This document shows, one piece after another, positions 6,001 to 61,974 of a stretch of DNA of 64,000 nucleotides; positions within the stretch are counted from its first letter, which is position 1, and every line of letters starts with the position of its first letter. A program made the position numbers and the translations under genes. A model generated the notes under the pieces. The model did no database searches and was not told the origin of the DNA. It was given only the letters and a program-made list of their open reading frames with translations. The stretch covers positions 186,001 to 250,000 of the forward strand of contig JASANH010001463.1 of the NCBI GenBank assembly GCA_030248295.1, given 5' to 3'. This stretch comes from Mesodorylaimus sp. YZB2_4. Taxonomy: Eukaryota; Nematoda; Enoplea; Dorylaimida; Dorylaimidae.

Positions 6001-9000
6001 TGGCCGACGACAAACGAACGTGTTTTGGTAAGCATAAGATAATTAATTCTGGTTTCTTTAATTTGGTCTGATTAGGTTTTGTTTTGACACATTTGCACGC
6101 ACGCTAGGCGCTATTGAGCGGCTGTTTGCGACGCGTTGGCTCGTCAATAATTCATTATAGGTACCTGTAATTAGGACCCCAATTGACTTTCTTTCTCCTA
6201 GTCCACGCAATTTCCTTCGTCTTCCTCCTGTTCTCTGAGAATACAGAATGAATAGGGGGGTACTCAATTAGATAATGAAATGAGGGGGACCAGATTCCAT
6301 GCTAGATTTCTTGTTTCTATGTTTCGGATGGACCTTGTTTCATGCGAATGCATTTCTGTCATTTATGCACTGCTGCGCATAGCCGATTTGACACCTTGCA
6401 TGTTATGAACGGGAGCCGGAAAGATGACGAACGAAAACATGTGGTTGAAGAGAGGGATGCTCAGGGGCCTATTGCCTTGTGTATTGGGAATACGTTTACC
6501 AAGTGATTGTTTGTCTGTCCTCCCGACAATGAGTGCTGCAAGGCAGTGCAGGGATTGTTATGAGCGCGAGGCAGCTCTAGCTACAGTGCAGCAGACAGGT
6601 TAGTACATTATCCCATTGGAAGGTCCTGTGCAAACCTGGGCTCGAACTGAAAAGTGAGAGAAGGATAGCGGCTCACTGCATCTCGTTTCGGAAGCTTGTG
6701 GGAACTTGGAGAAGCATTGCTGCCTTGACTCCTTTATGCGACAACTGCACTTTAAGAGCAGTTGAGCTTCAGAGATCTAGATTTATGCAGTGGCTGCAGT
6801 CCTAGAATGCGTAAAATTAAATTGGAACATTAACATTGCAGCACTTGACCCATGCCAAGAGAATAAAGGTGGTTGTCAGCATCATTGTGTCAATGATAAT
6901 GGACGAGCAAGGTGCCAGTGTTATCCTGGTTACCGCTTGGACAGGGACAGACGATCGTGCATTGGTATGTGTCTAGTACCACCAAGCCCTAAACTCTCTC
7001 AATCTACTGTATTGTTTCAGATTCTGACGAATGCGCACTGACTGGGCAGGGCGGCTGCGAACAGATCTGCGTCAATACACACGGCTCCTATACGTGTCGA
7101 TGTCATCATGGCTATGAGCTCGCATCTGATGGCAAGTCATGCCGACGTAAGTCGTACCTTTTTATGGCGCTCGTGCCTACCTCATGAAAGCATTCCTTAC
7201 TAAGTAGCACGTTTCAGGAATCAGGCCATCTTGCCGGCGAGATAACGGTGGCTGCGAGCAAACCTGTCAAGACACTAATGACGACGAGGGAGTGAAATGT
7301 TCTTGCCGACCCGGCTTTGACTTGGGACAGGATAAACGTCGATGCATAGGTAAGTAATGGGAAGCATAAATGGTCATTTCAGGTTCAGTCTGCATTTCTG
7401 TCAACTTACTAACGGTCGAAGCTTGTCTGTGGGTTGCTGCATATTGCTTGCTGCATGGATTGCTGTGCTCGGCTCGATTGAGAAGAGCAGCTTCGGTCTG
7501 ATTGTTTATGTCTTTCGTCCAGAATCAAGTACCAAGTGCACGGAGAATACTCGCAGCGGCTGCCACATTTCGTGCGCCAATGCAATAGATGGTCAAACGT
7601 CTTGCATGTGTCGGCCGGGTTACAACATTCTGCAAACAAAAGCTGGCCCTGTCTGTGTCGGTATGTGCTTTGTGTGCGCAGCAAATGCATGCTATCATGA
7701 ACGTGGTCCTAGTCCGGCCAGTGTACTGTAGCATGCATGAGCTGAAGGCAGTGCTAATCGCTTGCGAGTGTTCGTTTCAGCCTAACTAGCTCTGGTGTGC
7801 GTTTGCTAAGGTGGACAGTTTGTGCATTTGTTGTCGTGTCTAGATATAAACGAGTGCGCCGATCGAACGGCATGTTGCAAGCAATCGTGTTACAATATGC
7901 CCGGAAATTACAGCTGTGGCTGTTTTGCTGGTTATCGATTATCCCGAGATCGATGTGGATGCACTGGTATGCGTACTAGTCTCTGTCACAGCCGTGCTTA
8001 CACGCAGGAGCCTAGGCTTATTTCGGGTACACACCCCGGCCTAGTTTTCGCACTTTCTATCGCTAGATTTTTCCGCTTTGATTTTGAAATCTTATGAGTC
8101 GTTCTTCCTGGAACTTCTGTTCTTTTCGTAGTTCTGCTTTTAGTAGTTTAACTATTTCTCACCTTCGGTTTCTTCAATCAGTCTTTCTGTGTCGACGACT
8201 TCCTCTTTGACGTTCAGTTGCGTTCTTATCTCACTGCCAATCAGTTCACTGCTGCAGATATCGATGAATGTGACGAAGAGATATCGTGCTGCCAACATTC
8301 TTGCCGTAACACAGTCGGCAGTTACAAGTGCTCTTGTCCAACCGGACACCAGCTCGGTCCGGATGGATGTTCGTGCGTGGCTATCAAAGGTGCGCTACTT
8401 TGTGCGCTTTTCTTCGTTTATCTGATCATTTTTGTCTTAGTTAAAAATGTTAATCAATGCCGACGTCGGCGTCGTCGTGGTCGGGGCAACAGCACCGAGG
8501 GGGCTTGTTGCACTCAAATCTGTCGCTACACACCCGGAATCAATGTACAGGGTTACACTTGCGATTGTTACAGCGGGTACCGTCTTGCATCGGACGGGTG
8601 TCATTGCATTGGTACTGACTTAAGTCTTGATAGTTTGAATTTTTGAATTGATTGGTGGTTGTTAGATGTGGACGAATGCAATGAGCGAACAGCTTGTTGC
8701 CATCACACTTGTCAAAATGGTCCTGGAAATTATACATGTGGCTGCAGGCCTGGTTTCCGTTTGTCCTACGACGGATGCACGTGCTATGGTATAACATTTC
8801 GGTTACGTTTCAGTTCATTTTATGTTATTTGTTTGCAGCTTCCATGGTTTATTTGCTCACTGCACTGCTTGTGATTTTGTTGCAGACGTGGACGAATGCC
8901 TGGACAGGAATGGGGGATGTCAGCAGATATGTGAGAATACACCTGGCTCATTCACATGCCGATGTCAAAATGGGTTCCAGACAAGTCCTCTAGACCCACA

Positions 9001-12000
9001 TGTGTGCGAAGGTGCACATCCTGCTGCGGAATGTGTTATGACAGGGATGATAAACGAGTCTGTTATGCAGATATCGATGAATGCGCCAGCTCGAACAATG
9101 GCGGGTGCGATCATATTTGCGAGAATACAGTGGGTAGTTACAAATGCGAATGTCGCCCAGGATTCATCGTCGCTAGCGATGGCAGAATGTGTGAAGGTGA
9201 GCCAATCTTACCTTCGATTAAGTGCTAGAGATAAGATTAGATTTTGTAGACATCGATGAATGCGTGAATAACAATGCTGGTTGCGACCACGAATGTACGA
9301 ATGATCTTGGATCGTACAAGTGTTCGTGCAAGAATGGATTCACGTTATCGCACGACAGACATACCTGCGATGGTACGTTTCATGTTGTCTCACACAGGGA
9401 ATATCACAGTCAAGCCATCATGACTCGAGTGACCATCAGTACCCAGGTCGTTTTTAGCCATGCACCACTGACGATGAGGTAGCAACCTAGCATTCAAGCT
9501 GGGGTCCTCAAGAGAAGCACAGCTAACTGATTTGTGACATGGTGCGTAGATAAACAATATTTCTTTTTTTAGATATCAATGAATGTATTCATTCGAACGG
9601 CGGCTGTGAGCAAATATGCAAGAATGAACCAGGCAGTTACCGTTGCCAGTGCTTCCCAGGCTATTACCTCTCATCGGACACCAAGTCTTGTATAAGTAAG
9701 CTATTTGCCATAAATCTAGGTCAGCCCTGGCCTCTTTACAACAGTTTCTTTTTACATACTCAGCTCTTAGCTGGAGTCAGAGACAGCTTAGGCACGAAAA
9801 AAGTATGTCGTAAGTCGAACATCTCAAAATGTGTGAAGCACGCTGTTGCTTGCTGTGATTCCGCAAAACCCATTTTCTCTGCTCCCTTTCTTCAGAGTGT
9901 GTGTGTGTGCTTAGGCAATTCCTATCCTGCAATGATTTATGCACCGTAAGAGTAGAGTGTTCAGAGTAGCGTGCACGCGCTAGCCTGGTTCTGTCTCACT
10001 GTTCTCCTATTTCCTCTCCGCAGCTGATATAAATGGCGCCAAGAACGCTCTTCGATTCAACGACACAGTGACAATCGAGGCCACCGATTTCCAACACAAT
10101 ACCTCGAATGGCGATTACAGTTATTATCTCGAATGGCCACAAAAGTCCGCCGGAGTTGTCAACTTGCCATTAAACAATGGGCGAGGTTGGTTTGATTGTG
10201 GATCCGAGTCTTTCAAAGAACCTAGACTTTCAATATTGTCCGTGGTTTAGCTTTTACTGTAGCCAAATTCTGCTCTAGCTCTATTGCCTATTTTGCTTAG
10301 CATGTGACTCCAATATTTGATGCTTTTCCCGAAGAATCATGATTTGATGCTTTTCAGAATGCGATCCAGGTCGATTCGGTAAAGACTGTGAGTACACGTG
10401 CTCGCATTGTCAAAATGGAGGCCGTTGCAATCGTCGTCAAACTGGGTGCGAGTGTCGATCAGGATGGCTTGGGCTGATATGCAATGAAACTTGCCCCGAT
10501 GTAAGTCTTTTGAAATTCTGTGTTGGTGAATGAACTTGTCATCAGTTTTGATTTCAGGGTTTCTGGGGCGTTGGATGCAATAATTTATGCAGCTGTGGAA
10601 ACGGCGGTCTTTGCAATCCGATAAGTGGCGAATGCCAATGTCCTCCAGGTGTATCGGGCGAGAATTGCGAAACAGGTTGTCCACCAGGTATGCCCTGCTG
10701 CTGCATTTTCTATGTGTGTCCCCTCCATTGGTTGGTTTAGGGCGGTATGGCGAGCGATGCGATAAACCGTGCCCCATCTCATGTCCGAATAACATATGCG
10801 ATCGACTACATGGCTACTGTCCGTGCGAGCCTGGTAGATTCGGTCAACGATGCGACCAAGCGTGTCCGCCTTTCAAACATGGCCGAAACTGTCGTCACGA
10901 TTGCAAATGTCACAAGGACCACTCGCAAGGATGCGAGCCAACTACTGGAGAATGTAAGGCGGGATTGTGTGGTTTTATTGTTTCTATTAATCAAATCCAA
11001 TTTTAGGCATATGCAAGTCTGGCTTTCACGGTCCGTTTTGCAAGTTGCGTTGTTCCTCAGGCATGTATGGCCCAGGGTGTTTGAAGCGATGCGCATGCGA
11101 GCCAGGCGTGCCGTGCGATCCGGAAACAGGTCATTGCGAACCAAAATGCAAACCAGGCTACACAGGGGATGAATGCACGCAACGTAAGCATTGTGTATTG
11201 AGTAAATTCCTGTCTTGACTAGCCTTAGTTTTTTAGCTTGTCCATCCGGTCGTTACGGTTTGAATTGCGCCAACACGTGCAGCTGCCCTGCGACACAGTC
11301 GTGCCATCCAGCCACCGGGGCTTGCAGTTGTCCAGCTGGCTTCATGGGCGATCGGTGCGATGAACGTAAGTTTCTGTACAGCTTACTAAATAATTAGTCG
11401 CACTATGGTGTTTTCCAGCGTGCCCATCCGATCGCTATGGACCAATGTGCAGCCGCGAATGCGCTTGCAAAAATGGAGGTTCTTGCAATCCAAACGATGG
11501 GACGTGTTCCTGTGCCCCTGGATTTTATGGAGCTGCTTGCACGGAGAGTATGTTTGACCTTTTATGGCACTAGTGTCTAAATAAAGGCGGTCACTATGAT
11601 TCCAGAATGCCCACCTGGTCGCTACGGAAAAGATTGCATGCAATTATGCGAGTGCATGAACGGCGGAAAATGTGATCCTACAGATGGCAGCTGCACGTGT
11701 CCAGCTGGTTGGACAGGAGCTTTGTGTGACAAAAGTAACCATTCATTTGTTCCATCTGTTTAAAGCGTACACATACTTTTTGGTTGTTTCAGTATGCGAG
11801 AAGGGCACGTACGGCGTGGCGTGCGAGAAAAAGTGTCGCTGTCATCGAGAAGCGTCGTGCGATCCAGCAACTGGTGACTGTATATGCCCGCCGGGATGGC
11901 AAGGTGAACGATGCGATAGAGCGTGTCCAGAAGGCACGTTTGGTGCTGGATGTATGGGCGTGTGTCCTTGCAAGAATGGTGCAATATGCGATCCAATTTC

Positions 12001-15000
12001 TGGTAGGTTATGCTTGATAGAGACGACCCTGCATGATTGCTGCTGTTTGACTGCTGACGACGCATCAATGTTTCGTTTTACAGGACAATGCTCATGCATG
12101 CCCGGATGGCGGGGCCAAAGATGCGATAAGCCATGTCCTGATGGATTTTATGGTCGCGACTGCACACAAATCTGCGACTGTGGGAGTGGTAGGTTCCAGT
12201 TGTTGCCTTCTCCGTAATCCTGACCGCAATACAGTATTGTTTTCAGGCCTAGGTGACGTAAACGTTGTCCTAGCTCAATGCCATCATGTCACTGGTGAAT
12301 GCAAGTGCGATGCTGGCTGGACAGGAGCTGATTGTAGAACACCATGCCCCACGGGAAGTTGGGGCGTTGGATGTGCTAGTACTTGCGAATGCGCCAATGG
12401 TGCCCACTGCGATCCTGTAACAGGTATGACATTTTCAGTTGTTTTGGGACTGCGAAATAGCAGGTTCTTTACTTAGGCGATTGTACTTGTCCATCTGGTC
12501 TGATGGGCAAGAAATGCGACCAAGATTGTCCCGCAGGCTTGTACGGAGCCAATTGCGTTCAACATTGCCTCTGCCTCAACAATGGGACTTGCGACAGAAA
12601 GACGGGCGAGTGTTCTTGTCAGCCTGGCTGGCTAGGACCCGCCTGCGAGTTCTTATGCCCATTTGGGTACTATGGACTGGGATGCAGTCGAAAGTGTGAC
12701 TGTCAGAATGGGGCCGCTTGTCACTCTGTGACTGGACAGGTAAAGGGGCTTCACTGAGCCATCCATTCGCTTTGTCTTATGTGACGCCTTTTTAGTGTCA
12801 ATGCCTCCCTGGTTGGACGGGCGCGCAGTGTGAAAAACGTAAGTTAATCAGCCTCTAGCTGGTCTATCTCAGAGTAAGTGTTCTTACTTCATATTCAGCC
12901 TGCCCCGTCGGCCAGTTTGGACCGAATTGTGCGGAAGTATGCCAGTGCGAGCACGGGGCTTCGTGTAATCACATATCCGGTGTGTGTGACTGCACTGCCG
13001 GATGGCGCGGAAAACGATGCCACAGACCGTGCTTAAAAGGCTACTACGGTCGAAACTGCGCTCAAGTGTGTCGATGCCACGATCAGTCGCCGTGCGACCA
13101 TGTTACAGGTGCATCTTTAATTATAGGTCGAGTGAATGAAATGGTTGAGATTCTTCCCTTTCAGGCAAATGCTCATGCCCTCCTGGTTACACTGGCCCGA
13201 CGTGCAGTCAGCTGTGCCCTGTGGTAAGTAATGACCTCATCCAGGTGTCGATGTGTCGATCGATTAAACGATTGATTTAGGGACGATTTGGACACGAATG
13301 CGAGGGACGATGCGCTTGTGGACCCCATGCAGAATGTGATCCGATCACTGGTAAGCTATTCTCATATCATTCATTATCATGAGCCCACTCACTCGCGTCA
13401 ACTGTGCTATTTCAGGTCACTGCCATTGCAAGGCTGGTCAAACTGGCTCAGACTGCAAGACAGGTAATTTTTACATTGTACCCAAAAATGCCAGCAAGAC
13501 CAGTCTTTGCTTTAGGATGCATTCAAGGCAAATATGGTGTAAATTGCAAGGAGACCTGCGTGTGCAGGAACGGTGCAACGTGCAATCCAGATAATGGTAC
13601 GTTCGTACATCTTCTACGATCGTTCGCGTGTCTTCAATCTTTCGCTTTCAGGAAAATGCGTATGCCCGCCTGGCTATGTGGGTCCTCGTTGCGAGCACGA
13701 ATGCCCATCCAGTCGATATGGTCAGCGGTGCATGGAAGAATGTCATTGCCAGAATGGAGCCACTTGCAACAAGGTGACTGGTCAGTGCATCTGTCCTCCC
13801 GGATTTACTGGAGAGAAATGCCAGAATGTGTGCCAAGACAATCGGTATGGACCTGGGTGCACGGAGAAATGTAAATGCAAGAACAATGGACGATGCGATC
13901 CGGCGACAGGAGAATGCAAATGCACTTTGGGATGGATGGGACCGAGCTGTGAACAGGGTATGCAATTGGTTCAGTGGTATGCCATGGCATGAATTCCAAT
14001 AAGCACGTCAGTTTATTTCAGAATGTCCAAAAGGGAAATATGGGCCTGAATGCTCTTTGGAATGCCGGTGTCATAACAATGCTCCCTGCGACCGAATCAC
14101 GGGCTGTTGCGACTGCCCTGATGGATTCTATGGTGGCATGTGCGAGTTCAGTAAGTTGACGCATCAGGTGTTTTTGATGCTTTTATTTGGATCTCGTTCA
14201 TTTTAGAATGCCCGGACGGCTTGTACGGATGGTATTGCTCTAAGAGCTGCGATTGCATGAACGGAGCCACGTGCGATGCTGGGTAGGTCTAGTGCAGAGT
14301 AGTTTGGGTCTGTTTTGTACTTTTGCTGGGGATCTTCGATCTTCCTACTCTTTTAGAACTGGACGTTGTCTGTGCCCGCCTGGATTCATGGGAGACAAGT
14401 GCGAGAAAGAGTGTCCGCAGGGGCACTACGGAGCCAATTGTCGTTTGAGGTGCGACTGTGGCAACTTCACTTGCCACACAGTAACTGGACGATGTCAGTG
14501 TCCACTAGGATTCCATGGCTCTCATTGCAAAGAGGGTATTGGTAGAGGAGGGCATGTGTGTAGAGAGGTCTTCGAACCATTCCTTCATTATAGCTTGTCG
14601 GCCCGGCCTGTTCGGTCTCGGATGCGAACAGAGTTGTGAGTGCTACAACGGCGCTTATTGCGATGCGGTCAGTGGCATGTGCCGGTGCGCTTCTGGATGG
14701 CTGGGACCTACCTGTCAGCACATGGATTTCGGTATGTAATTGTCCAAATTCGCCAAGTGATTTGGCTTGGCCATCCTAACCTAAAATGAGCACCTATTAA
14801 TGTCAGCCAAAAACAAAGGCCGCCCGTGACCAGAGCCGTAAGCTATGTGTAACGCGGTCATTGTCTTCATACAGCTCTAGCCCTTTTGTTCGTCGTTGTG
14901 TCCATCACATGGTTTCCCCTTTAGAGCCTGTGTTCTGTCTTTCGCACAAACCCAGAATATACTATGGTTTCACCAAGACGTTGCGCCTTTCGTGACTGCC

Positions 15001-18082: not shown

Positions 18083-19158
18083 TTAACAGTATCTCAATCC
18101 TAGACGGGATGCTTCATTGACATTATCCAAATTGAAACTACGTATTTGCAATCGGCCATTAGTATCTTTCCAACATCCAACTACCCCGCTGTCAAATATA
18201 CGATAACAGCCTGGATTCAGAGCGTGCGTACCTTGAGGGACGGAATAAAGGCATCGTAAATATTCCCTTCGCACACCATTCGGTTCGATCTTGCAAGTCG
18301 CTTCGTACTCGTATGGTTCATCGCCTTCGACCCACGTGCAGTTGATGCGGCGATCTAATCTGGCTCCGTTGTACATGGTTACGCAGGCGGCTGGCTTGAT
18401 TTTGGTTCGGTCATCATCGACCCAACATTCGTACACGACCTCATCGTGGGTTAATTGATCGCCGGCTCGCAGTTTATGCCCATCGAACAAGCATCCAATG
18501 ACTTTATGAATTATGGGTGCACCTCGATCATTGCCCGATGTAGTGCACATGTACCAAAGATTGTTGGACCTCGTAAACGTGTCTCCAACATCATATTGAC
18601 GTCCTTCGGAATAGCATCCACTCGGGACCATAACGAATGACGTGTCCTGTAGTTCCTTACACGAATATACCAAATCGCCCTTGTTCACTTTCTCGTTGAC
18701 AGCCACGCGTCGACGACTCTCATCAATGCATCCAGCTACTTCGACCGCCACAAAATCACGGTCTTTCTTGCAAATGTAGAAATTTTTTTGATCCTCCCAT
18801 TGCTCGTTGACCTGATATTCTCGACCGTTGTTTGCGCAGGATTTGTAGTGGAAGGAGAGATAGCCGTCGGCTCCAATCACGCATTGCATACGCACGCCAT
18901 CGCGGTCATCGTACGTTTCACCAACATTCAAGCGACGATAATCTTCGGCCAAGCAACCTTTTTGAATCAATTGACCATCCTGACACTCGTACCTGAAATG
19001 TCCTAAAATGCAATTGATCCTGGACCGCACAACATGCAGTCTTACCAATATCGACCCCGATCCACTTGCGAACCGTGTCGATAGCCACCGGAGCATGTCC
19101 TTTCTTGGCTGAGCACAAAACTCGTTCGTAGAAGAACAATGAAAATTGAAAGAATCAT
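18083..19158 (-). CDS. Secreted MIG-18-like protein with FN1-like repeats, copy 1
   Basis: Secreted cysteine-rich protein of the kind annotated in nematodes as abnormal cell migration protein 18-like (fibronectin type I-like domain). Exon 1 is 19046-19158 and exon 2 is 18083-18992, giving 340 residues after removal of a 53-bp intron. The signal peptide begins MILSIFIVLL, followed by CSGGYRHGSQVDRGRYWYEC. About six modules follow, each with a GC, a YxC and a GxxxxxGE-type turn (KGCLAED, SCANNGREY, GCIDESRRRV, GCYSEGRQYD, GCLFDGHKL). The C-terminus ends GLRYC. The start is fixed by the signal peptide and by alignment with the copy at 28130, which has its intron at the same codon (GRYW|YEC). MIG-18 in C. 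elegans acts in basement-membrane-dependent gonad migration; the role here is unknown. The family name is from memory. Confidence 0.75.
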
Positions 19159-19235
19159 TTCCAAGCTGAGGGTTACTGGCGCAGTGTCTCGAAAGGACGA
19201 CCGATGCAAGTGTGCCAACTTTGCAGATGTCAGCT

Positions 19236-19244
19236 CTTTTTATA
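19236..19244 (-). promoter_or_regulatory. TATA box, MIG-18-like copy 1
   Basis: On the minus strand the sequence reads TATAAAAAG, about 80 bp upstream of the ATG at 19158, a normal distance for a short leader. Copy 2 has a matching TATAAAAGG, which supports use by both paralogues. Confidence 0.55.
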
Positions 19245-21773
19245 GAGTCAATCCGATTGACAGGGCGAAAAAGGTGTGCCGCCTTTTGCACGCGTCTGTC
19301 TGCCTGTATACATAATTGGGCGATGACCTTACGCCCATGGGATATCTGATGAAGAAAAGGCCTGTCGTTGAGAAGTTATCGCTTTTAGCCATCGGTGATT
19401 TGAAGTTTTACTGCTCTTCTCCACTCCCTTCCTCCCACTATTCACAAGTACTCAACGCCTTGGGCCTCTAATGTACATACATTGCATGGTTGTCTCGTTA
19501 CGCTCGGGTTCATCACGGAACTTCTTGGAACGGTGGGCAAGTAAGACATTTATAAAATTACATGTTGCATTCTCGTCAGTCTTTCCGCACATCTCGCACA
19601 AAAAGCTTCCTTTGATCACATTCGTCTATGCAAAGGCCAGGCTTCTTTTCGTGATTGGTAAATGTTGAAATTGGCAATCTTATCGCGTGGGATAAAATGA
19701 TGACATCTATAGTAATCCCCAACGTGTCGAGGACTCTTGCCCGGGGGCACTCTTTCAACGCAGGAACTTTTATTCATAATGCTCGAAAAGAAATTTCATT
19801 CAAAGGCCTTTTTACACCCTTTACAATAAGCTTTTGTCGTTGTGCCCTCGGCAATCATAGAGTTTTGCACTTACCAGCCAGTAGGCCTTGTTTTTGCCGC
19901 CCTTCAGTGTTAGGCGACATTCAAAAAAAGAGATTTGCGTTAAAATCGCTTTGACGGGACGACCTCGGACCAACTGAATGACAAGACAGGTAGTCAATGG
20001 TAAACAAGGTTCTTCGATTGTTATCTTCAACCATGCTGTCTGGCGAGACATTGGTCGTCCATTTCTAAAGGAGTGCCCTAATAGGACAACTATGCGACAC
20101 TAAATTTTTTATGGTTTTCTTCTCTTGGCACTCTGCAGCGTAAGATTGATTTCGATTGGATAGATGCCCACGTTACGTTGTAAATGTTGTCTCTTGACAA
20201 ATGGCTGAATGGGTCCGCCAGTCATTGCCTTACGAGGTAAGATTAATGCGCGTCCGGACACTTGCTTTTATTCGGTTCAAGCGATGTGCAGAAATTAGCA
20301 AGAATCTACACTAAAAAACAGCGAAGCAAAGTGTGGTTTTGACTAAAGATGTACCAAAATGTTGCGCCAAAATACCTAGGTGGGCGTAGTGTGACTGGAT
20401 GCGTCTCATCATAGCTTAACACAAGGCTAGTACGCATACGCGAGTACGCCCGAAACACCCTCACAGACATTTCTTTCGTTCAGCTACAGGGCTACAGGGC
20501 GTAAGTTTGGGTTATGCTGCTCGGCATCACAGTGTACAGCAGTCCTGCACATTTGAGTTGTGCACTGGCCAATGCAAGCAGCACACATTCGTGCAGTATC
20601 CTTCCGTACGATCATTCCTCGAAACGACTCCCACAATGAACCATGCCATTGCACGATGCTGGCTTATTAAGCCTATTTATGGCCAGGTTCAGTATGTCAC
20701 AGAGTCATGCACCTGACCGCAATATGTCCATTAAAATTACCTGATGAACGCAGATTTTTGCACTGCGTATCTGCTCACTCAAAGATCGTGAATTGCACAA
20801 TGCGCTAGCAAACACCGCAGTCTCATGACAGCCATTGTTTGTAATTGATTAACGTTATTAGCCCAAAACAAACGTTCTGGCAAAGCAATGAACCAGTTTT
20901 AACCGAGTCTTAAACCCAACGCCGCCAACGACATTCATTGAGGATTATTCCAGCTTGCAGCTTTCCTCCCACCACACAAGTCGACATTAAAACCAGATGC
21001 AAAACTCAACTAATGACCTCCCCGCGTCATACAGTAGTGTGTCAAGACGGCATGGTACCAATGAGTAACTCATTTATTATCGGTGTTTTTCGAACTTCAA
21101 ACATCCGCGAGTGAATTATGCATGAATCCAAATTTAGTCTTGGACAGGCCTCGTCTGGGTGCAGCGCATTATTTCATAGCGTTATTGTTCAGGACAAGAA
21201 GGAGCGGCTGTCACCTATTATCACAGTTTCTTCGTCAACGTGGGCTTCTCTCCTCTCGGCTGACTGTACACTTATATGCAGCCGAGTGTGACAGATTGGT
21301 AAAACCTGTTTTATGGACCCTTGCACCAGAGGCTGCGCGCTCTGGGTCAATAGGCGAGTCACTGTCTTCAAGGCCGCTCCTTTTTTGTAATCTGGTTCGA
21401 TTTACTCTTCCACTTCATCACTATGCAATGAAGGGAAAATGGTGGTTGTGCTTTTGCAATAATTGCAATGTGATTGGAGCAAAATGAGACAAGAATTTTA
21501 AAGTTTCGATGCATGCGATGACTCGTGTGCTCTGCTAATTCTGGTGCGGTGCATACTAAATTTGCTACAACGAAAGACAAGGAGGTCTATAAAGTAAGTT
21601 TTAAAAGAAGAAAAGGCAATCAATTCGATAAAGGGCAAAGCAGAGTAATCGGCTTATAACCGCAAGTGCATCCTTTCTATACATGACATAGATTGTATGC
21701 ACCCATAGAAGCAACAAAGTGACTATTTTCTGTTGACTTTAGAAAAATGTAACCTAACGTCGCCAGACGCTGC
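19245..21773. other. Intergenic stretch, no gene recognised
   Basis: Only short open frames occur (for example 21083-21487) with no similarity that I recognise and no consistent splice pattern. Confidence 0.4.
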
Positions 21774-22870
21774 TTAGCAAGCGCGGAGGCCGGCGCCGGT
21801 TGCTGAGCTCACGGCGTTTTCACCTTGGAAGGATTGGAGTTTTAAAGTTTTGCCTTCTTGAACGCAACCGAAAGCAGCTTTCTCGATGACGCGGTAGCAG
21901 CCGGAGTCGATGTTGTAGACGCCATTGCCGACGTTGTAGCTGCAACGAACTTGGATCTTGGTGGCTCGGTTGGCGGCAGCATCGTGTTCGCATCGCCATT
22001 CATATTGGAAGGGGGCTTGACCTTCGATCCAGGTGCATCCAAGTTTGCGTTCGATGGTGGTGCTGCCGTCGTTTTGGATGCAAGCAGTGGCACGCACGTC
22101 ATTCTTGTTGGCGTCGATGGTGCATTCGTAGACGACGTCGTTCTCGTTGTAGCGATCGCCATCGTTCAAACGCTTACCATTGGCGAGGCATCCGGAAGCC
22201 TTGATATTGAATTTCTCGCGACCAGTTTGGGTGCAGGTGAACCAGAATTTGCCATCGTCGAAAGAGTCACCAGAGCCGTAGGCCTTACCATCTGAAAAGA
22301 AGTAGGGTGTCAGAAACGGCCGTCCGTATTACTGATGGATGGTAGCTAGAGCTTACCCTTCACGCATCCGCTTTGGACCAACTTGGCGCCATCGTTGACA
22401 GCCTCTTCGCAGGTGTAGACGGCGTTGTCCTTGTTGACCTTCTCCTTCAGGGCGACACGCTTGCCAGAATCCACGCAGCCTTCGGTGACGGCTGACAGGA
22501 CTGGTTCGGTTGGGTTAGATTTGCAGGTGTAGTAGTTGTTGCCATCTTCCCAGGATTCCGAGGCTTTGTGCTCTTGACCGTTTTTGACGCAGGCCGTGGG
22601 TTCGAAGCTCAATTGGTCACCAGAGGCGACGCATGCACGGCGGTAATATTTGTTGTCGTAGTGGCCTCCGACGGGGATGCGAGACAGATCTTCGGCGATA
22701 CAGCCCTTCGGCACCACGTTACCACCTTGACACACGTAGACGAGACGGCCGCGTTCGATTTCGGCTCCTTCAGCGTAGCCACCTGGACAGCTTCCACTGG
22801 TTTGGGTTGGCAAAGCCAACGTGGCGACCGAAGCGCCCAAGACGAACAGAACCACGGAGATGATCTGCAT
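21774..22870 (-). CDS. Secreted MIG-18-like protein with FN1-like repeats, copy 2
   Basis: Paralogue of copies 1 and 3. Exon 1 is 22357-22870 and exon 2 is 21774-22291, giving 343 residues. The signal peptide starts MQIISVVLFVLGASVATLA, followed by CPGGYAEGAEIERGRLVYVC and the same series of modules (KGCIAED, ACVKNGQE, GCVDSGKRV, SGCVKDGKAYG, GCLANGKRL), ending GAGLRAC. Upstream in-frame codons lack a good start, so I choose the ATG at 22868-22870 next to the signal peptide. Unlike copies 1 and 3 it has no intron in the GRYW region; its single intron falls between two modules (CVK|DGK). Codon use is strongly biased to C/G-ending codons, suggesting high expression; that is inference. Confidence 0.75.
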
Positions 22871-22974
22871 GATGAAAATGAATGAAGAATTCAAAGAACG
22901 GAAACGAGCAGTCGACTCGAAATTCTAGCGAAGACCGCAAGTGAAGTATGCATACCATCCGTTCGAGTTCGACT

Positions 22975-28129: not shown

Positions 28130-29181
28130 ATGATGAAATTCTTCTTATTGATCTTGCTTGCTGCGCTCTACGCCAGCAATGTGTCTGCCGACAGCAGCGG
28201 AAAACGTGAATGCCCTGGCGGCCATGCTCACGGAACCCAAGTAGAGGCTGGTCGTTATTGGTAAGCTGCACCCAATTTGGCCCTCCAATGCTCAGCTTGA
28301 CATGAGAATTCTCATTCAGGTACGAATGCCAAGACGGTCAAATGATGCCCAAGGGATGCTTGGCTGAAGATGGACATCGGGTTGACATCGGTAGTACGTT
28401 CGACACCAAGGACTACCGTATGCAATGCGTTCTTAGCCCGGATGGCTTCTTGACCATCGTCTTCAAAGCCTGTGTGCTAAACGGTGGCGAGCACGACGTC
28501 GGCTCGCAATGGGACGATGGCACGGCTCTCTACACCTGCGTCAAGGAAGGAAGCAATGTTCGCCTCGTTACGCTCGGTTGCGTCGACCAAGGACGACCAC
28601 TGAAGTTGGAAGAGCGTGTGGCCAAGGGCAACTTCCTCTACCAGTGCAAGAAAGCCACTGATGGCACCCCGAGAATTAACAAGGTCGGTTGCGTCCATGA
28701 AGGCCGCAAGTACACCATCGGAGAAACTTTCGAAGGACCCAAATTTTGGTACACCTGCACGGACAGCGGCGTCAAAGTCATCGGATGCATGTACGAGTCG
28801 CACCAACTCCGCGATGGCGACTACTTCACCAAGGACGGTATCATGTACGCGTGCAAGGTGTTGCAAGATAGCGCCGATTTCGAACCGTTCGCCTGCGTGG
28901 CCCACGAAAAGGGCGCCACCATCGAACGCAAGATCGGTTGCTTCTGGAGCGAAGGCGATTATGAATACACCTGCAAACCCGAAGGCAATAACAAATTAGT
29001 CAAGGCTCAAACACAATGCGTCTACCGAACAACATCTGGCTACTTCAAGGTTGAACCTGGCTGCGTCAAATTGGCCGGAACGACGGCCGTTGGCTGCAAA
29101 GAACTAGCCCCAGGCAAGTTGAGCATGGAAACCTACCCTGCTGATCAAATTGATCGATTGACCGGTCTCCGAAAATGCTAA
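28130..29181 (+). CDS. Secreted MIG-18-like protein with FN1-like repeats, copy 3
   Basis: Exon 1 is 28130-28260 and exon 2 is 28320-29181, giving 330 residues. The signal peptide is MMKFFLLILLAALYASNVSA; the mature protein begins near DSSGKRECPGG. The modules parallel copy 1 closely (KGCLAEDGHRVDIG, ACVLNGGEHDVG, GCVDQGRPLK, GCVHEGRKYTIG, GCMYESHQLRDG), ending TGLRKC. Two ATGs are adjacent (28130 and 28133) and either could be used. The 59-bp intron splits the same Trp codon as in copy 1, so these two are the closer pair, although they lie in opposite orientation 9 kb apart. A possible TATAAA sits at 27954, rather far upstream (176 bp). Confidence 0.78.
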
Positions 29182-40523: not shown

Positions 40524-41935
40524 ATTCATGGAGCTCTGCCGTTTTTTACGCTTCGACGACACGGAAAATCATCCTGCGAGCGAAGATGAGTCGATTGCAC
40601 ATGGTCGTCAAGCTGGTCGAGGAATTCATCGATGATTACGGATCTTGTTTTATTCCCGGGCGCTACATCACTGTCGATGAAGCCCTCGTCGATTTCCGGT
40701 AAGCTTTCTATTAATCAGCGTGGCTACGCAACTTCTCAATTGACTACATTCTTTTAGAGGTCGTGTTGGTTTTAAAATGTACATGCCAACGAAACCAGCT
40801 AAATATAGTATTAAAATTTTCGTATTAGCTGATGCCAGAACCAACATCATGCTGCGCGCCTACATTTACTCCGGCAAAGATGATGGTTCTGAACCTGAAG
40901 ACGTTCAAGTTGACGAACGAGACAAGGTCGGCGACAACGAAGGTGAAGGCACTTTAGACGTTGGTGCTGCTACTGAAGTCCTTTTGAAGCTTGTGAAAGA
41001 TTTCGGGCGCTCTGGGCGCGTGGTCGTTTTTGATCATTGGTTTACCGCGATCGCATTGGCATTGGAGCTTCGTCGGCGTGGGCTGGATTGTGTCAGAACA
41101 ATGAGAGGAACGGCTCGTGGTATTCCAGTCGCATTAAAACGACTTGATTTTCATTAGTATACGATGGAAAATCGGTGGTAGCGAGGACCAATTGTGAAAG
41201 AAGAATTTATGAAGCGTACGGTGAACTGCATCCGGCGGATACCCAGGCTCGTAGATGTCGAAAAAAGGCGAAACTCGTGCCGTTGGACCTGCGCCGCAGG
41301 ATCGTCGTGACCCTTTAGAAACTAGGAGACGTCCGTCGTTGGTCCTGCGACTAGGTGGCAGTGGGCGATATGAGGTCGATCGTACGGGTGGTGTCGTCAG
41401 TGAGGTCGTGAATGAAGCCATGTTGGCTTCTGTCGAACAATCAGCCTCTACGAGTGACAAGAATATAGCTGGGGCGTTGTCGAACGAGGCACACACGGCA
41501 TTTCTGTTCGGTGGTCCTATTACTTTGTGCAAGTACGTTGCGAAGAAAGACAAGGGGAAATCGCCCGTCTACATATTGGCCACTGCGCATCACGACGACA
41601 TCGGAGAAAGAGGGACGTCCGAAAATCTCCAAATGTTGCTATTTATTGAAGCCGGGCGGTGATGTTATTCTAAGATCCTCGGGTTACATAGTGCGCTTCG
41701 TGGTAACGACGTTGGTCATTGCAGGATCAAATGGTTTCCGAATATTCCTGTCGGCGGGCGTGTTATCGATGTGCAATCCGAGTTTTCTAGTGGTTATCAG
41801 ACGTTGCCTCATTGACTGTTTGCGAAGCTTTCATTATTGCGAGTCGGGGATCTGAAGAAGCGTCAATGACGAGGCGAGATTTTTTGCGACCTTTGGCTTT
41901 GGCCCTTACGAAACTATTGGTCAAGAGAATAAAGC
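40524..41935 (+). mobile_element. piggyBac-family transposase, decayed, contains an intron
   Basis: DDE-type cut-and-paste transposase. In order: FMELCRFLRFDD (40528 on), a +1 frame change near 40595, VDEALVDFRGR with the first catalytic Asp, then GFKMYMPTKPAKYSIKIF, VVFDHWFTAIALALEL with the second Asp, and RGTARGIP. A GT-AG intron of 55 bp (40703-40757) splits FR|GRVGF. After a stop at 41155, further family-like pieces appear (DKGKSPVYILATAHHDD at about 41550, then a DFLRPLALALTKLLV-like run near 41875). The MGGVD region and third Asp were not found. Frameshifts and stops mean it is not functional. Terminal inverted repeats and TTAA flanks were not identified. Confidence 0.75.
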
Positions 41936-58040: not shown

Positions 58041-59251
58041 ATGGATCCGACGAGCGATGTGGGAAACGGAGGGGTCGAAGGAGAATCGACTAATTTCCCA
58101 GATTTTCGTGCGGCAGGTCAACTAACTTATTATTTTCTGTATTTTTGATGGATAAAATAGCTTTTTTCAGTTTTTACTTTCCTTGCTGATTACGGTTGGT
58201 TTTTATTGATCGGAATCGCCCTTATTGTCTTCATCTGGCAGAAATATGTTTCCGATCAATTGGCTCAAATTTCTACGAGAAATCAAGACTCTATTTCGGT
58301 ATCGATAGTGAAGAAAAATGGTAACAAAATGAGATTCTCTTGTAAATCGAAATTTCTGATTTAGTGCTGTCTGGATTTTGGAATAGGTCTCACTCCAAGA
58401 AAGTGCCTATTCTTGCGCACGAAGTTCCAATTTCTGCCCTAGTTTCTTGTTATTAATGCGTGGCATATAGTCTCGATTTTTATTGGGCCTCTTTCATTTT
58501 CAAAATTCAAAGGTTTTCCGTTTGGCGCTTTTGCAGTTTGTCCCCCCAACCTCTTAAATCCAGTCCACCCTAGCCTATAAGCCTTAGGCTAAGACTAGGC
58601 CTAAATCCAGCCTATCCTAGCCGAAGCCTAAGCCTATTGGGGGACAAAGTGCAAAAGTGGAAAAGTTTTTCTCAAAGTATTAGAGTTCTTATGTTAGGCC
58701 TCATTTATTTTCATTCTGTGCATTTTGTCTCTCAAAACCACCTTTTTCCTGTTACATTTTACATTTCGGCATTCACTCTTTTTTAGAAGACGCCAATTCT
58801 ATTCTTTCCCGCCACGAAGCCATGCTAGCTGCACGCCAGCGAATGCAAGAAGAACAAAATCGTCTTTCCGCTTTAGCCAAGGAAGAAATGGCAAAAGTAA
58901 GCAACAAAGTTTTCTAAAGCTATCAGTTAACAAATTGATATTTCCAGCGCGAAGAGGAAAAACGGCGGCAAAAAATCGAGGAATGGGAAATTCACAAAAA
59001 AGGAGGCGGATATCATAGCAAAAGTCACATCCCTGAAGAACAGCCGTCGCCTTCGTCCACGAGTCAACTGAAAAAGCCACAAGCTAAAAAGCCGTTACGT
59101 CAAAGTGGTAAATTTTTTAACGAACTCATAAGCTTCAAATATTCAGTTTGTTTTCTCCTTTCTAGATTACAGTCCCTTATCCGGTGGTGGTGGCAGCTGC
59201 AACTATCGTCCGAGTCGACGCGGATTCGGTGGAGGTGGCGGATGAGGTTAA
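58041..59251 (+). CDS. SELENOS: Selenoprotein S (VIMP), Sec codon TGA at 59243-59245
   Basis: ER-membrane protein of the ERAD retrotranslocation machinery that partners Derlin and p97/VCP. Five exons, 58041-58116, 58171-58320, 58787-58896, 58948-59107 and 59166-59251, give 193 residues including selenocysteine (human about 189). A short lumenal/N-terminal part is followed by a membrane helix (WFLLIGIALIVFIW, residues about 33-46), a coiled coil rich in Arg/Glu (RHEAMLAARQRMQEEQ, REEEKRRQKIEEW) and a Gly-rich tail (YSPLSGGGGSCNYRPSRRG). The frame then reads GGA TGA GGT TAA: exactly the family ending Gly-Sec-Gly-stop. A SECIS candidate follows about 65 bases later. The donor of exon 1 (GTCAAC) is weak. 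The TIR element copy 2 sits in intron 2. The 3' end converges on the neuraminate lyase gene. Confidence 0.9.
58524..58660. mobile_element. TIR element with TTAGGC arrays, copy 2
   Basis: Left end GCGCTTTTGCAGTTTGTCCC; right end GGGGGACAAAGTGCAAAAG. Pairing is about 18 of 20. The interior contains CCTTAGGCTAAGACTAGGCC and AAGCCTAAGCC. Inserted in intron 2 of selenoprotein S. Confidence 0.65.
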
Positions 59252-59291
59252 AGCATGGGCGATGGTTGAGAGCTATCGCCCAAATATGCTG

Positions 59292-59371
59292 CATTTGGCA
59301 CCCTTTTTATGACGTTATTCGCTGAAACGGTTGCTGCTGCTGCGAATAGCTGATGCAGGGCCCCTCATCTG
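59292..59371 (+). promoter_or_regulatory. SECIS element (candidate)
   Basis: The eukaryotic SECIS core is present: ATGA at 59309-59312, then 12 bases, AAA at 59325-59327, and the opposing TGAT at 59351-59354. Helix II pairs GTTATTCGC (59314-59322) with GCGAATAGC (59342-59350), nine pairs with one G-U. A weaker lower helix can form between CCCT and AGGG. Distance from the TGA codon is within the range known to work. Confidence 0.82.
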
Positions 59372-59379: not shown

Positions 59380-59436
59380 GCCTTCAAATCCCTTTGCTCT
59401 ACTGTTCAACAAAATAACTTCGCCTTGCTGGGTTCA

Positions 59437-61974
59437 TTAAATTATATCTTTGAAGCGAATGGTTTCTAGCTTTGTTTTTAGTTCTTCCACTTTCTCGTTA
59501 CTGATCGGTGTAATTGGTTTCCTCGTTGGTCCGAGATTGATCCCCGGAAAATATTTAGGAACAAGCGCTTTCAAAGTCGCTATAAGGATATTGGTGCCAC
59601 CTGGAAATCGGAGTCATTGGTTTCAGATCGTAAGGAGGCTGTAATTTTCGAACACTTACTGATAACGCCCGTTAGAGTCATGAATTCATTGACATGGATC
59701 TAAAAGAGATCGAACAAGTCAGCCATGGTCAGGAAAGGGCTGGGTATTAATCTTGGTTTTATAGGTTCCAAAATCGGGAAAAACCCGAACCTGAGATCTT
59801 ACCTGCTCTCCTCTCGCTTTCTTCAAATCCCCGTCATCGAATGCTTTGATCAATCGATTACACGGTTTACCCACAATATTGAACGTTATCCCAATGAACC
59901 CATTCAGACCCATGCTCAGGGCGCCCAGTATCATCTGCAAGGAAATTAGGGTAAAATGTAGTCAGATGGGAGACTGTTCTACGCACCCCATCCGATCCAA
60001 TTAGGACATCGTAGTTGGAATCGAAGAGGAGACTGGCACTCACTGCATCGTGCAGATCGGATGCTGTGAACTTGGCACCGACCAGAGTTGGAATCTTGCC
60101 ATGTGCCTCCTTGAAGAAATCTGTGAGTCGTACTGAAACAAATGGCAATTTTTATGGCCAGTTGTCAGACAGGCAGACAGGGTCACCAGTCCTTGATAGC
60201 GCCCATGGCGTCTCACAGAAAAGCAAATTTGCCCCCCCCCCCCCCTATGATACTGGACTTAGAAATTACCACTCAAAGTATTTTATATAAGTTTTAGTAA
60301 TCATAGAACACTGACTTTAAATGCTTCGAAAAACGGTTTACCAAGAAATTTAAATTTAATAATGGCGGGAAAATGTGCACAACTTATTCTTGGCATCCAA
60401 ACCTTGCCCTTGTGCTCATGATTTTGTATTTTTCTACTGTGATTTTGTATCCAATCAGGACATCGTAGTTGGAATCGAAGAGGAGACTAAGCAAGGCATA
60501 CTGATGTTTATGCTCGACGGGATCTGTCATAAATCAAACAGGAAACCAGCACGTATGTGCCTGTGTTCGGGTCTCTCTGGAAACGCATTCTGTAGCACCT
60601 CAAGTCTTTGCCAGGTACATGCGGTCACTATGGGTGTAGAGTACATGCGAGGAAAACTTCGGTTTCGTGCCCACATAAACATTCTGCACCTAGTTTTCAT
60701 TCAGTGAGATCGAACATGGGTTCAGGACTGTTGCAGCCAGGCTAATCTGGTCGCTTGTATTATTTCACCACTTCGAAGTTAAACCCCCTTGAATAGTTGT
60801 ATGACCCTTGTGGTCGAATTAGTATGATTTTCGACTTGCATATTGGATGCCCCGGGTTCGAATCTCGGTTGCCCCGAGTCTTTATCGAGAAAAAATACGT
60901 GAATAAATACTGAAGCTGAAAAATGGAATAAGTGGAATGCACGAGTCTCGGTAGGTTCCTGACGACGCATGTGCAACGCTCATGCTTGCAGTGACACCTG
61001 TGCAAGATACCTTCCCCCAGTGACGCTCAATCGCAGCCGCTCGATCCCTGGGCCGTACGAGATCCCGCATTCTCCCCTGAGCGGGATCGACGATGAGGAC
61101 ATTGCACTCCTGGAATCCTGACATACCCACTACCAGTGCGGCTGGCCGTTCCTGGAACCCACCAGCAACACTAGATATGGCAGGGCCCGCGTAAGCTGAG
61201 AGGGAGACCGTATCGCCAGGCGTGAGGGCGGCCCAGCGGGTCCATGATGGAAGAGAGGAGTCCTTATCGTTTTGCATTCCTGCTCCATCGACTCCGCGAA
61301 ACTCAAGTGCTGTAGTGGCGTTCAGTTTAAATAAAGTGCGCACAATTTTCTCATGACGGAATGTTTTGTGCGATGCTTGGAAGTTTTTGGTGCGAGGACT
61401 TCAGGCATCAGTAGGAGTCTATTGGGTTTTCGCACATTAAATGGAGCTCAAGGCGTAGTGGCAACCCTGCAGTGTCCTTATGTAGGTCGCCTCTGATTGT
61501 GTTTTGATTACATCAGATTTCCAATCTAATCTGGGCTCTGGTTTCCTCTACCTCTGACGTGATGTAGCTTATTAGTAAGTGCCCTGACAATAGAGACGTG
61601 GCTCAAGAACACTCTACACTTACTGTTTATGCCAGTTTGAGCAGGTATATGATAGTACATAAACGGGGTGTTCATCGCTTCCTTGGCCGCCTCGGCGCAG
61701 TAATCGACCAGATCGCCTGAAACATTGAAAAATTGAAATTCTATTATGACTAGGACAGGAAATAGTCAGAGCACTCACTCAGAGTGCTTGGTTTGAAGTA
61801 CGTTGGCCCAACGACTGCCACTGCATCCACACCCAGTCCAGCAGCGTGTCTTAGCTAAATCGGTACAGACTCCATCATTGCAGGGTGGCATGGCTAGCAA
61901 AGTCAGGATGGCTCACCAAATCTTTCGTTTCCGTCAAGTTTCCACTGCCGCAATGCACTATGATACGATCCAAT
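59437..61974 (-). CDS. N-acetylneuraminate lyase (sialic acid aldolase), N-terminal exons missing
   Basis: Class I aldolase of the DHDPS/NAL family that splits N-acetylneuraminate into N-acetylmannosamine and pyruvate in the cytosol. Seven exons (minus): 61917-61974, 61779-61854, 61624-61716, 59987-60132, 59803-59934, 59660-59699, 59437-59600; phases agree, 236 residues. Motifs: IIVHCGSGNLTETKDL, AVAVVGPTYFKP, the catalytic-Tyr motif YYHIPA, the Schiff-base Lys in LVGAKFTASDL, GALSMGLNGFIG and a C-terminal LGPTRKPI. About 60-65 residues with the GTTGE pyruvate-binding motif are absent. I saw no matching exon between 61975 and 64000, so the 5' exons lie outside the window or are lost. The 1.5-kb intron 60133-61623 holds repeats and a copied exon piece. 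Confidence 0.85.
60449..60488. repeat. Copied fragment of a neuraminate lyase exon
   Basis: These 40 bp match 59995-60034, inside the exon 59987-60132, at 39 of 40 positions and in the same orientation. It lies in the adjacent intron and keeps no splice sites. Confidence 0.85.
60786..60925 (+). mobile_element. tRNA-derived SINE-like sequence (family 3)
   Basis: A TGGTCGAATTAGTATG A-box-like stretch, a CTTGCAT loop (Ala-type anticodon TGC) and a GGGTTCGAATC B box (60854-60864) are followed by an A-rich tail. The anticodon stem does not pair, so it is not a functional tRNA. Lies in an intron of the lyase gene. Confidence 0.45.

Follow-up and report, generated by a model that had tools for sequence, protein, structure and literature searches.

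A complete selenoprotein S gene with a penultimate in-frame UGA and a SECIS element in a nematode that probably retained a broad set of selenoproteins

Does a nematode encode selenoprotein S (SelS; SELENOS/VIMP) with its selenocysteine (Sec) in place, and if so, in what company? In C. elegans a complete Sec machinery serves a single protein, which makes this worm a textbook example of selenoproteome reduction. The question is raised by a locus in the stretch of 64,000 nucleotides analysed here (the window), where a first-pass annotation had proposed a SelS ending and a SECIS hairpin and argued that a second selenoprotein in a nematode would point to a later loss of the wider set on the C. elegans branch. 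Elsewhere in the window, a long series of EGF-like cysteine-rich exons (7354-14639, forward strand, read by eye) probably encodes at least one large extracellular protein with many EGF domains, and a Pfam DDE_Tnp_1_7 match (40744-41157, forward strand) is what we take to be a piggyBac-type transposase fragment.

Positions 58041-59251 of the forward strand hold a complete five-exon SelS gene, the exons having been joined by script with splice sites chosen by eye. Exon 1 (58041-58116), defined by splice-site and frame analysis, contains the start codon and the N-terminal segment. Exon 2 (58171-58320) contains the likely transmembrane helix DYGWFLLIGIALIVFIW, read by eye, and is matched in the genome search by positions 27-71 of the Pfam Selenoprotein_S profile (PF06936). 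Exon 3 (58787-58896), with RHEAMLAARQRMQEE in the coiled-coil part, and exon 4 (58948-59107), with EEEKRRQKIEEWE and a linker, are each backed by the PF06936 search of the genome, the gene model and a PDB match. Exon 5 (59166-59251), identified from the sequence, the gene model and the Pfam match, encodes in one frame DYSPLSGGGGSCNYRPSRRGFGGGGG, followed by TGA, GGT and TAA. The four introns (54, 466, 51 and 58 bases) are all of the GT...AG type and keep the frame, giving a spliced product of 193 residues that ends Gly-Gly-Sec(TGA)-Gly-TAA. The ending GGA TGA GGT TAA described in the first-pass annotation is thus confirmed, with the TGA at 59243-59245 as codon 192 of 193. The interval originally given for the feature, 59166..59354, covers the last exon and the SECIS element; it misses the rest of the gene, which begins at 58041.

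The assignment to SelS, also made in the first pass, is borne out by the spliced product, which matches PF06936 with 158.7 bits (cut-off 29.8) over residues 23-190 and profile positions 26-192 of 192. Six other Pfam families listed for the product are all under their own cut-offs, and none of the NCBIfam models, which were built for prokaryotes, scored above a cut-off. At E < 0.01 the product matches only two distinct sequences in the PDB, both named Selenoprotein S. In the 145 Mb assembly the locus is the sole place matched by PF06936 (E <= 0.001), in two exon-wise pieces of 46.0 and 25.6 bits. The protein has a hydrophobic stretch from residue 35, a putative transmembrane helix, and RHEAMLAARQRMQEE is a putative p97/VCP-binding segment, presumably containing the VCP-binding motif (both read by eye). 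An upstream cysteine, Cys177, accompanies the penultimate Sec192. The gene resembles known SelS in a putative hydrophobic helix near the N-terminus, a coiled coil, a Gly-rich tail that carries the Cys and the penultimate Sec, and a SECIS in the predicted 3'UTR (human features from PMC3628699). In human cells, according to the same paper, SelS sits in the ER membrane as part of the ERAD complex and interacts with VCP; it has a Cys174-Sec188 selenosulfide and a proposed reductase role. The spacing from Cys to Sec is 14 residues in the human protein and 15 in the nematode one. Within the known SelS family the gene is unexceptional. The surprise is its lineage: it occurs in a nematode, and this phylum is reported to have a reduced Sec set.

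The SECIS element of SelS lies at 59301-59361 on the forward strand, with core ATGACG (from 59309), AAA and CTGATG; a possible polyadenylation signal, ATTAAA, follows at 59436-59441 (motif match only). As first noted, the hairpin begins about 65 bases downstream (the first base of the core ATGA is 66 nt 3' of the TGA), and it has the AUGA quartet, the apical AAA, GA on the 3' side and a helix II paired at 9 of 9 positions. Its score is less comfortable. The full-length alignment to the Rfam SECIS_1 model (RF00031) reaches 27.3 bits against a gathering score of 35, and Rfam at the gathering threshold finds no match anywhere in the window. The E-value is 0.0022 in a 351-base stretch and 0.21 in the whole genome. 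Folding stability does not stand out from that of shuffled sequences (z -0.56; matched or exceeded by 52 of 200 shuffles), and the minimum-energy fold contains the expected 9-bp helix II. A relaxed test (ATGA...AA...TGAT, helix II with at least 8 of 9 pairs) gave two counts in the window, which we infer to be one element at two AA offsets; first-order Markov versions of the window gave a mean of 0.05, with any count at all in 3 of 60. The case for this SECIS is made by the hairpin, its position and the protein taken together, and a chance hairpin is rejected on four lines of evidence combined: the Rfam model, the pairing of helix II, the Markov controls and where the element lies.

A whole-genome search with SECIS_1, which allowed E-values up to 10 and scored 134 of 2823 candidates, returned five places, four of which sit downstream of TGA-containing reading frames: a SelL-like gene, two thioredoxin reductases (TrxR) and SelS. 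The fifth (contig C173, 22.5 bits) was dropped, as it overlaps what looks by eye like the coding frame of a channel. With the same settings 4 of 14 control genomes were matched, all of them prokaryotes and none above the cut-off. Only the SelL-like element, with 39.1 bits, exceeds the gathering score; those of the two TrxR genes (29.8 and 27.4) are below it, and the SelW and SPS2 elements described below are absent from the SECIS_1 genome listing. The low score of the SelS element is therefore not damning. A covariance model built from five of the genome's own elements (R1) was too narrow, missing SelS and SPS2, and was not used genome-wide. A search by SECIS pattern gave 41 places, 28 of them forward and 13 reverse, compared with 19 for the pattern read backwards. 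Helix II has at least 8 of 9 pairs in nine of the 41, and all nine are near a TGA-containing selenoprotein frame. The pattern had itself been derived from eight of these nine, picked partly by pairing, so that only the ninth, a SelW copy on contig C145, counts as an independent find. Two further places, both on C39, have identical matched letters and 7 of 9 pairs; one of these loci was inspected by eye and showed no selenoprotein. The remaining 30 have at most 6 pairs.

The motifs ATGACG, AAA and CTGATG are invariant in eight of eight elements (SelS, SelL-like, TrxR a, TrxR b, SelW 1-3 and SPS2), and the helix II arms pair at 69 of 72 positions. With one element per family (n=5), arms pair with their own partners at 43 of 45 positions and with another gene's partner at 1 to 6 of 9; the true pairing is the only one of 120 re-pairings to reach the sum of 43/45. 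This statistic describes the set and is no proof, since the elements were chosen partly by pairing; the Rfam match to the SelS element is independent of that choice. These comparisons bear on whether the TGA might be a plain stop, leaving a SelS that ends one residue short of the Sec, with a hairpin that is a relic or a product of chance. A SECIS below the gathering score, which alone is not significant genome-wide, would fit such a gene, and loss of two residues might be tolerated. Against this, the codon after the TGA is the family's final Gly and runs directly into TAA, the element keeps its quartet, apical AAA and fully paired helix II with a core common to seven other selenoprotein genes, and the genome contains Sec machinery. 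We regard a plain stop as highly improbable, and a TGA decoded as Sec as the better reading.

The first-pass annotation had proposed looking for such machinery, and tRNA-Sec, eEFSec and SPS2 were found. The tRNA-Sec matches RF01852 with 76.4 bits (cut-off 47) and has the anticodon TCA; ARAGORN independently calls a tRNA-SeC with anticodon tca. All 14 control genomes also matched RF01852, five of them above the cut-off, and a second match in the genome proved to be a tRNA-Leu. An open reading frame of 623 aa encodes the elongation factor eEFSec; alongside domain 4 (PF21131, 124.2 bits) it has the GTPase domain, domain 2 and domain III, and the PDB entry that it matches best is eEFSec (5izk, 555.8 bits). 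Contig C283 carries SPS2, with four exon matches to TIGR00476, none above the whole-protein cut-off, and a SECIS downstream. An upstream exon, without a Pfam match on its own, reads FRLTNLSDLRG-TGA-GCKVP with the TGA in frame, which we take to be the SPS2 active-site stretch with Sec. The host's SPS2 is thus apparently the Sec form. This is notable because, according to a 2015 survey (PMC4561486), SPS-Cys occurs within metazoans only in nematodes. A PF00586 hit on C13 looks by eye like GART and not like SPS.

SelS is one of at least eight distinct TGA-containing selenoprotein genes, or nine with a near-identical SelW copy; eight is a lower bound, counted over the SelS, SelL-like, SelW, TrxR and SPS2 families. 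Those with an in-frame TGA and a SECIS are, besides SelS, SPS2, a SelL-like gene with two Sec codons, two TrxR and three SelW with the near-identical fourth. At E <= 0.001 the genome has three Rdx (SelW-type) matches, each with one internal TGA, and the three spliced products contain the CxxU motifs CRGU, CSGU and CGGU. The fourth locus lies on C145; across 2,051 bases it shares 97.5% identity with the C65 locus, of which it may be a haplotype copy. The three SelW genes (L013, L014 and L015 on C44, C7 and C65) each have a second SECIS-like hairpin (ATGACGAGTT...CTC[CT]GATG) that precedes the canonical element by about 100 bases. It is conserved among the paralogues, its AAAA is farther from the quartet than usual, and its scores with model R1 are weak (10.9-11.7 bits, E 0.36-0.56); it may be a tandem SECIS or a duplicated relic.

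The SelL-like gene (L001, C82:433.8-434.5 kb) contains FYG-TGA-GA-TGA-EKF, an in-frame UxxU with two TGA codons. It passes the Pfam models AhpC-TSA_2 and AhpC-TSA, and it is called SelL-like because its score with NF040769 (SelL_rel_redox; 88.3 bits, E 4e-25) is under the model cut-off of 120. The two TrxR genes, L009 (C1:543 kb) and L010 (C1:785 kb), end TGC TGA TCG/TCT TAA, that is, Cys-Sec-Ser. In one of them, which was assembled by eye, the N-terminal part is Grx-like. The best match of this TrxR in the PDB is B. malayi TrxR (670.5 bits), followed by cytoplasmic TrxR1 (648.0), with about 40 more query residues aligned to the Brugia chain. The Grx part may account for the whole score difference, and the Brugia lead is therefore weak evidence of kinship.

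The significance of this gene set depends on the host, which we take to be a nematode by its cuticle-collagen content, not by rRNA. The assembly has 133 Col_cuticle_N matches (E <= 0.001), a domain not known outside nematodes, and all three loci that were read have Gly-X-Y collagen repeats; this agrees with the phylum assumed in the first pass. The contig, or the whole assembly, might instead be non-nematode, as a contaminant or as another ecdysozoan with a full selenoproteome. Contig C67, which carries SelS, has no cuticle-collagen match, and the small Brugia lead of the TrxR, perhaps due to its Grx part, does little for a nematode origin. SL1 RNA was not found in the genome either, a null result that is uninformative because no control genome matched. 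Set against these points, five of the ten contigs with Sec-related genes (C1, C3, C7, C44, C65, C67, C75, C82, C145 and C283) have a cuticle-collagen match, and those five hold tRNA-Sec (C75), eEFSec (C3), the SelL-like gene (C82), TrxR (C1) and one SelW (C44). The SECIS core of SelS on C67 is the same as on C1, C7, C44, C65, C82 and C283. The window itself has a cluster of three genes with repeated Fn1_2 (PF23003) domains, a family biased to nematodes (18083-19375 and 22346-22924, reverse strand; 28306-29181, forward strand). A non-nematode source is thus very unlikely.

We conclude, with a probability of about 0.92, that the locus is an intact nematode SELENOS/VIMP gene whose UGA would be read as Sec under direction of its SECIS, in an animal that appears to retain a broad ancestral selenoproteome. 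The SECIS in the 3'UTR of the SelS mRNA would recruit eEFSec with Sec-tRNA, presumably with SBP2; UGA codon 192 would be read as Sec, one Gly added, and translation would end at UAA. Homology predicts that SelS is anchored in the ER membrane and has a helix in the cytosol and a flexible tail, whose Sec192 could form a selenenylsulfide with Cys177. By analogy with the vertebrate protein, it may act in ER-associated degradation. The retained set would comprise SelS, the SelL-like protein, three or four SelW, two TrxR and the Sec-form SPS2. SelS, which the first-pass annotation saw as a second selenoprotein, is one of a broad set, not a stray extra. Its idea of a later loss of the wider set on the way to C. 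elegans is strengthened, as a SelL-like gene, SelW, Sec-form SPS2 and two TrxR accompany SelS.

Taskov et al. reportedly stated in 2005 that some other nematodes have more selenoproteins than C. elegans, and the existence of nematodes with more than one is therefore probably not new. The breadth of the set, with SPS2 in its Sec form, may be new for a nematode; among the titles and abstract openings covered by a literature search, none described SelS, SelL or Sec-SPS2 from a nematode. It is likely that one nematode lineage escaped the Caenorhabditis-type collapse, keeping SelS, a two-Sec SelL-like protein, multiple SelW, two TrxR and a Sec SPS2, all with AUGA/AAA SECIS elements, and that the collapse and the change of SPS2 from Sec to Cys took place within Nematoda and can be dated by sampling. 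If so, the selenoproteome was reduced inside Nematoda, and this animal would provide a close comparison for why, and in what order, selenoproteins, the Sec of SPS2 and parts of the machinery were lost.

Like C. elegans and C. briggsae, the host has a Sec insertion system and a Sec-containing TrxR; unlike them, with one reported selenoprotein each (PMC2375036), it has at least eight TGA-containing genes, including Sec SPS2. The Grx-like N-terminal domain in at least one of its two TrxR is shared with filarial worms, whereas the Cys-Sec-Ser end differs from the GCUG of filarial TrxR (PMC8914392). SelS (in 3 of 6 species), SelL, SelW, TrxR and SPS also occur in the cnidarian, mollusc, annelid and other invertebrate sets of PMC3473315. 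That survey stresses massive selenoprotein losses in nematodes and insects, in contrast to the broad set of this nematode.
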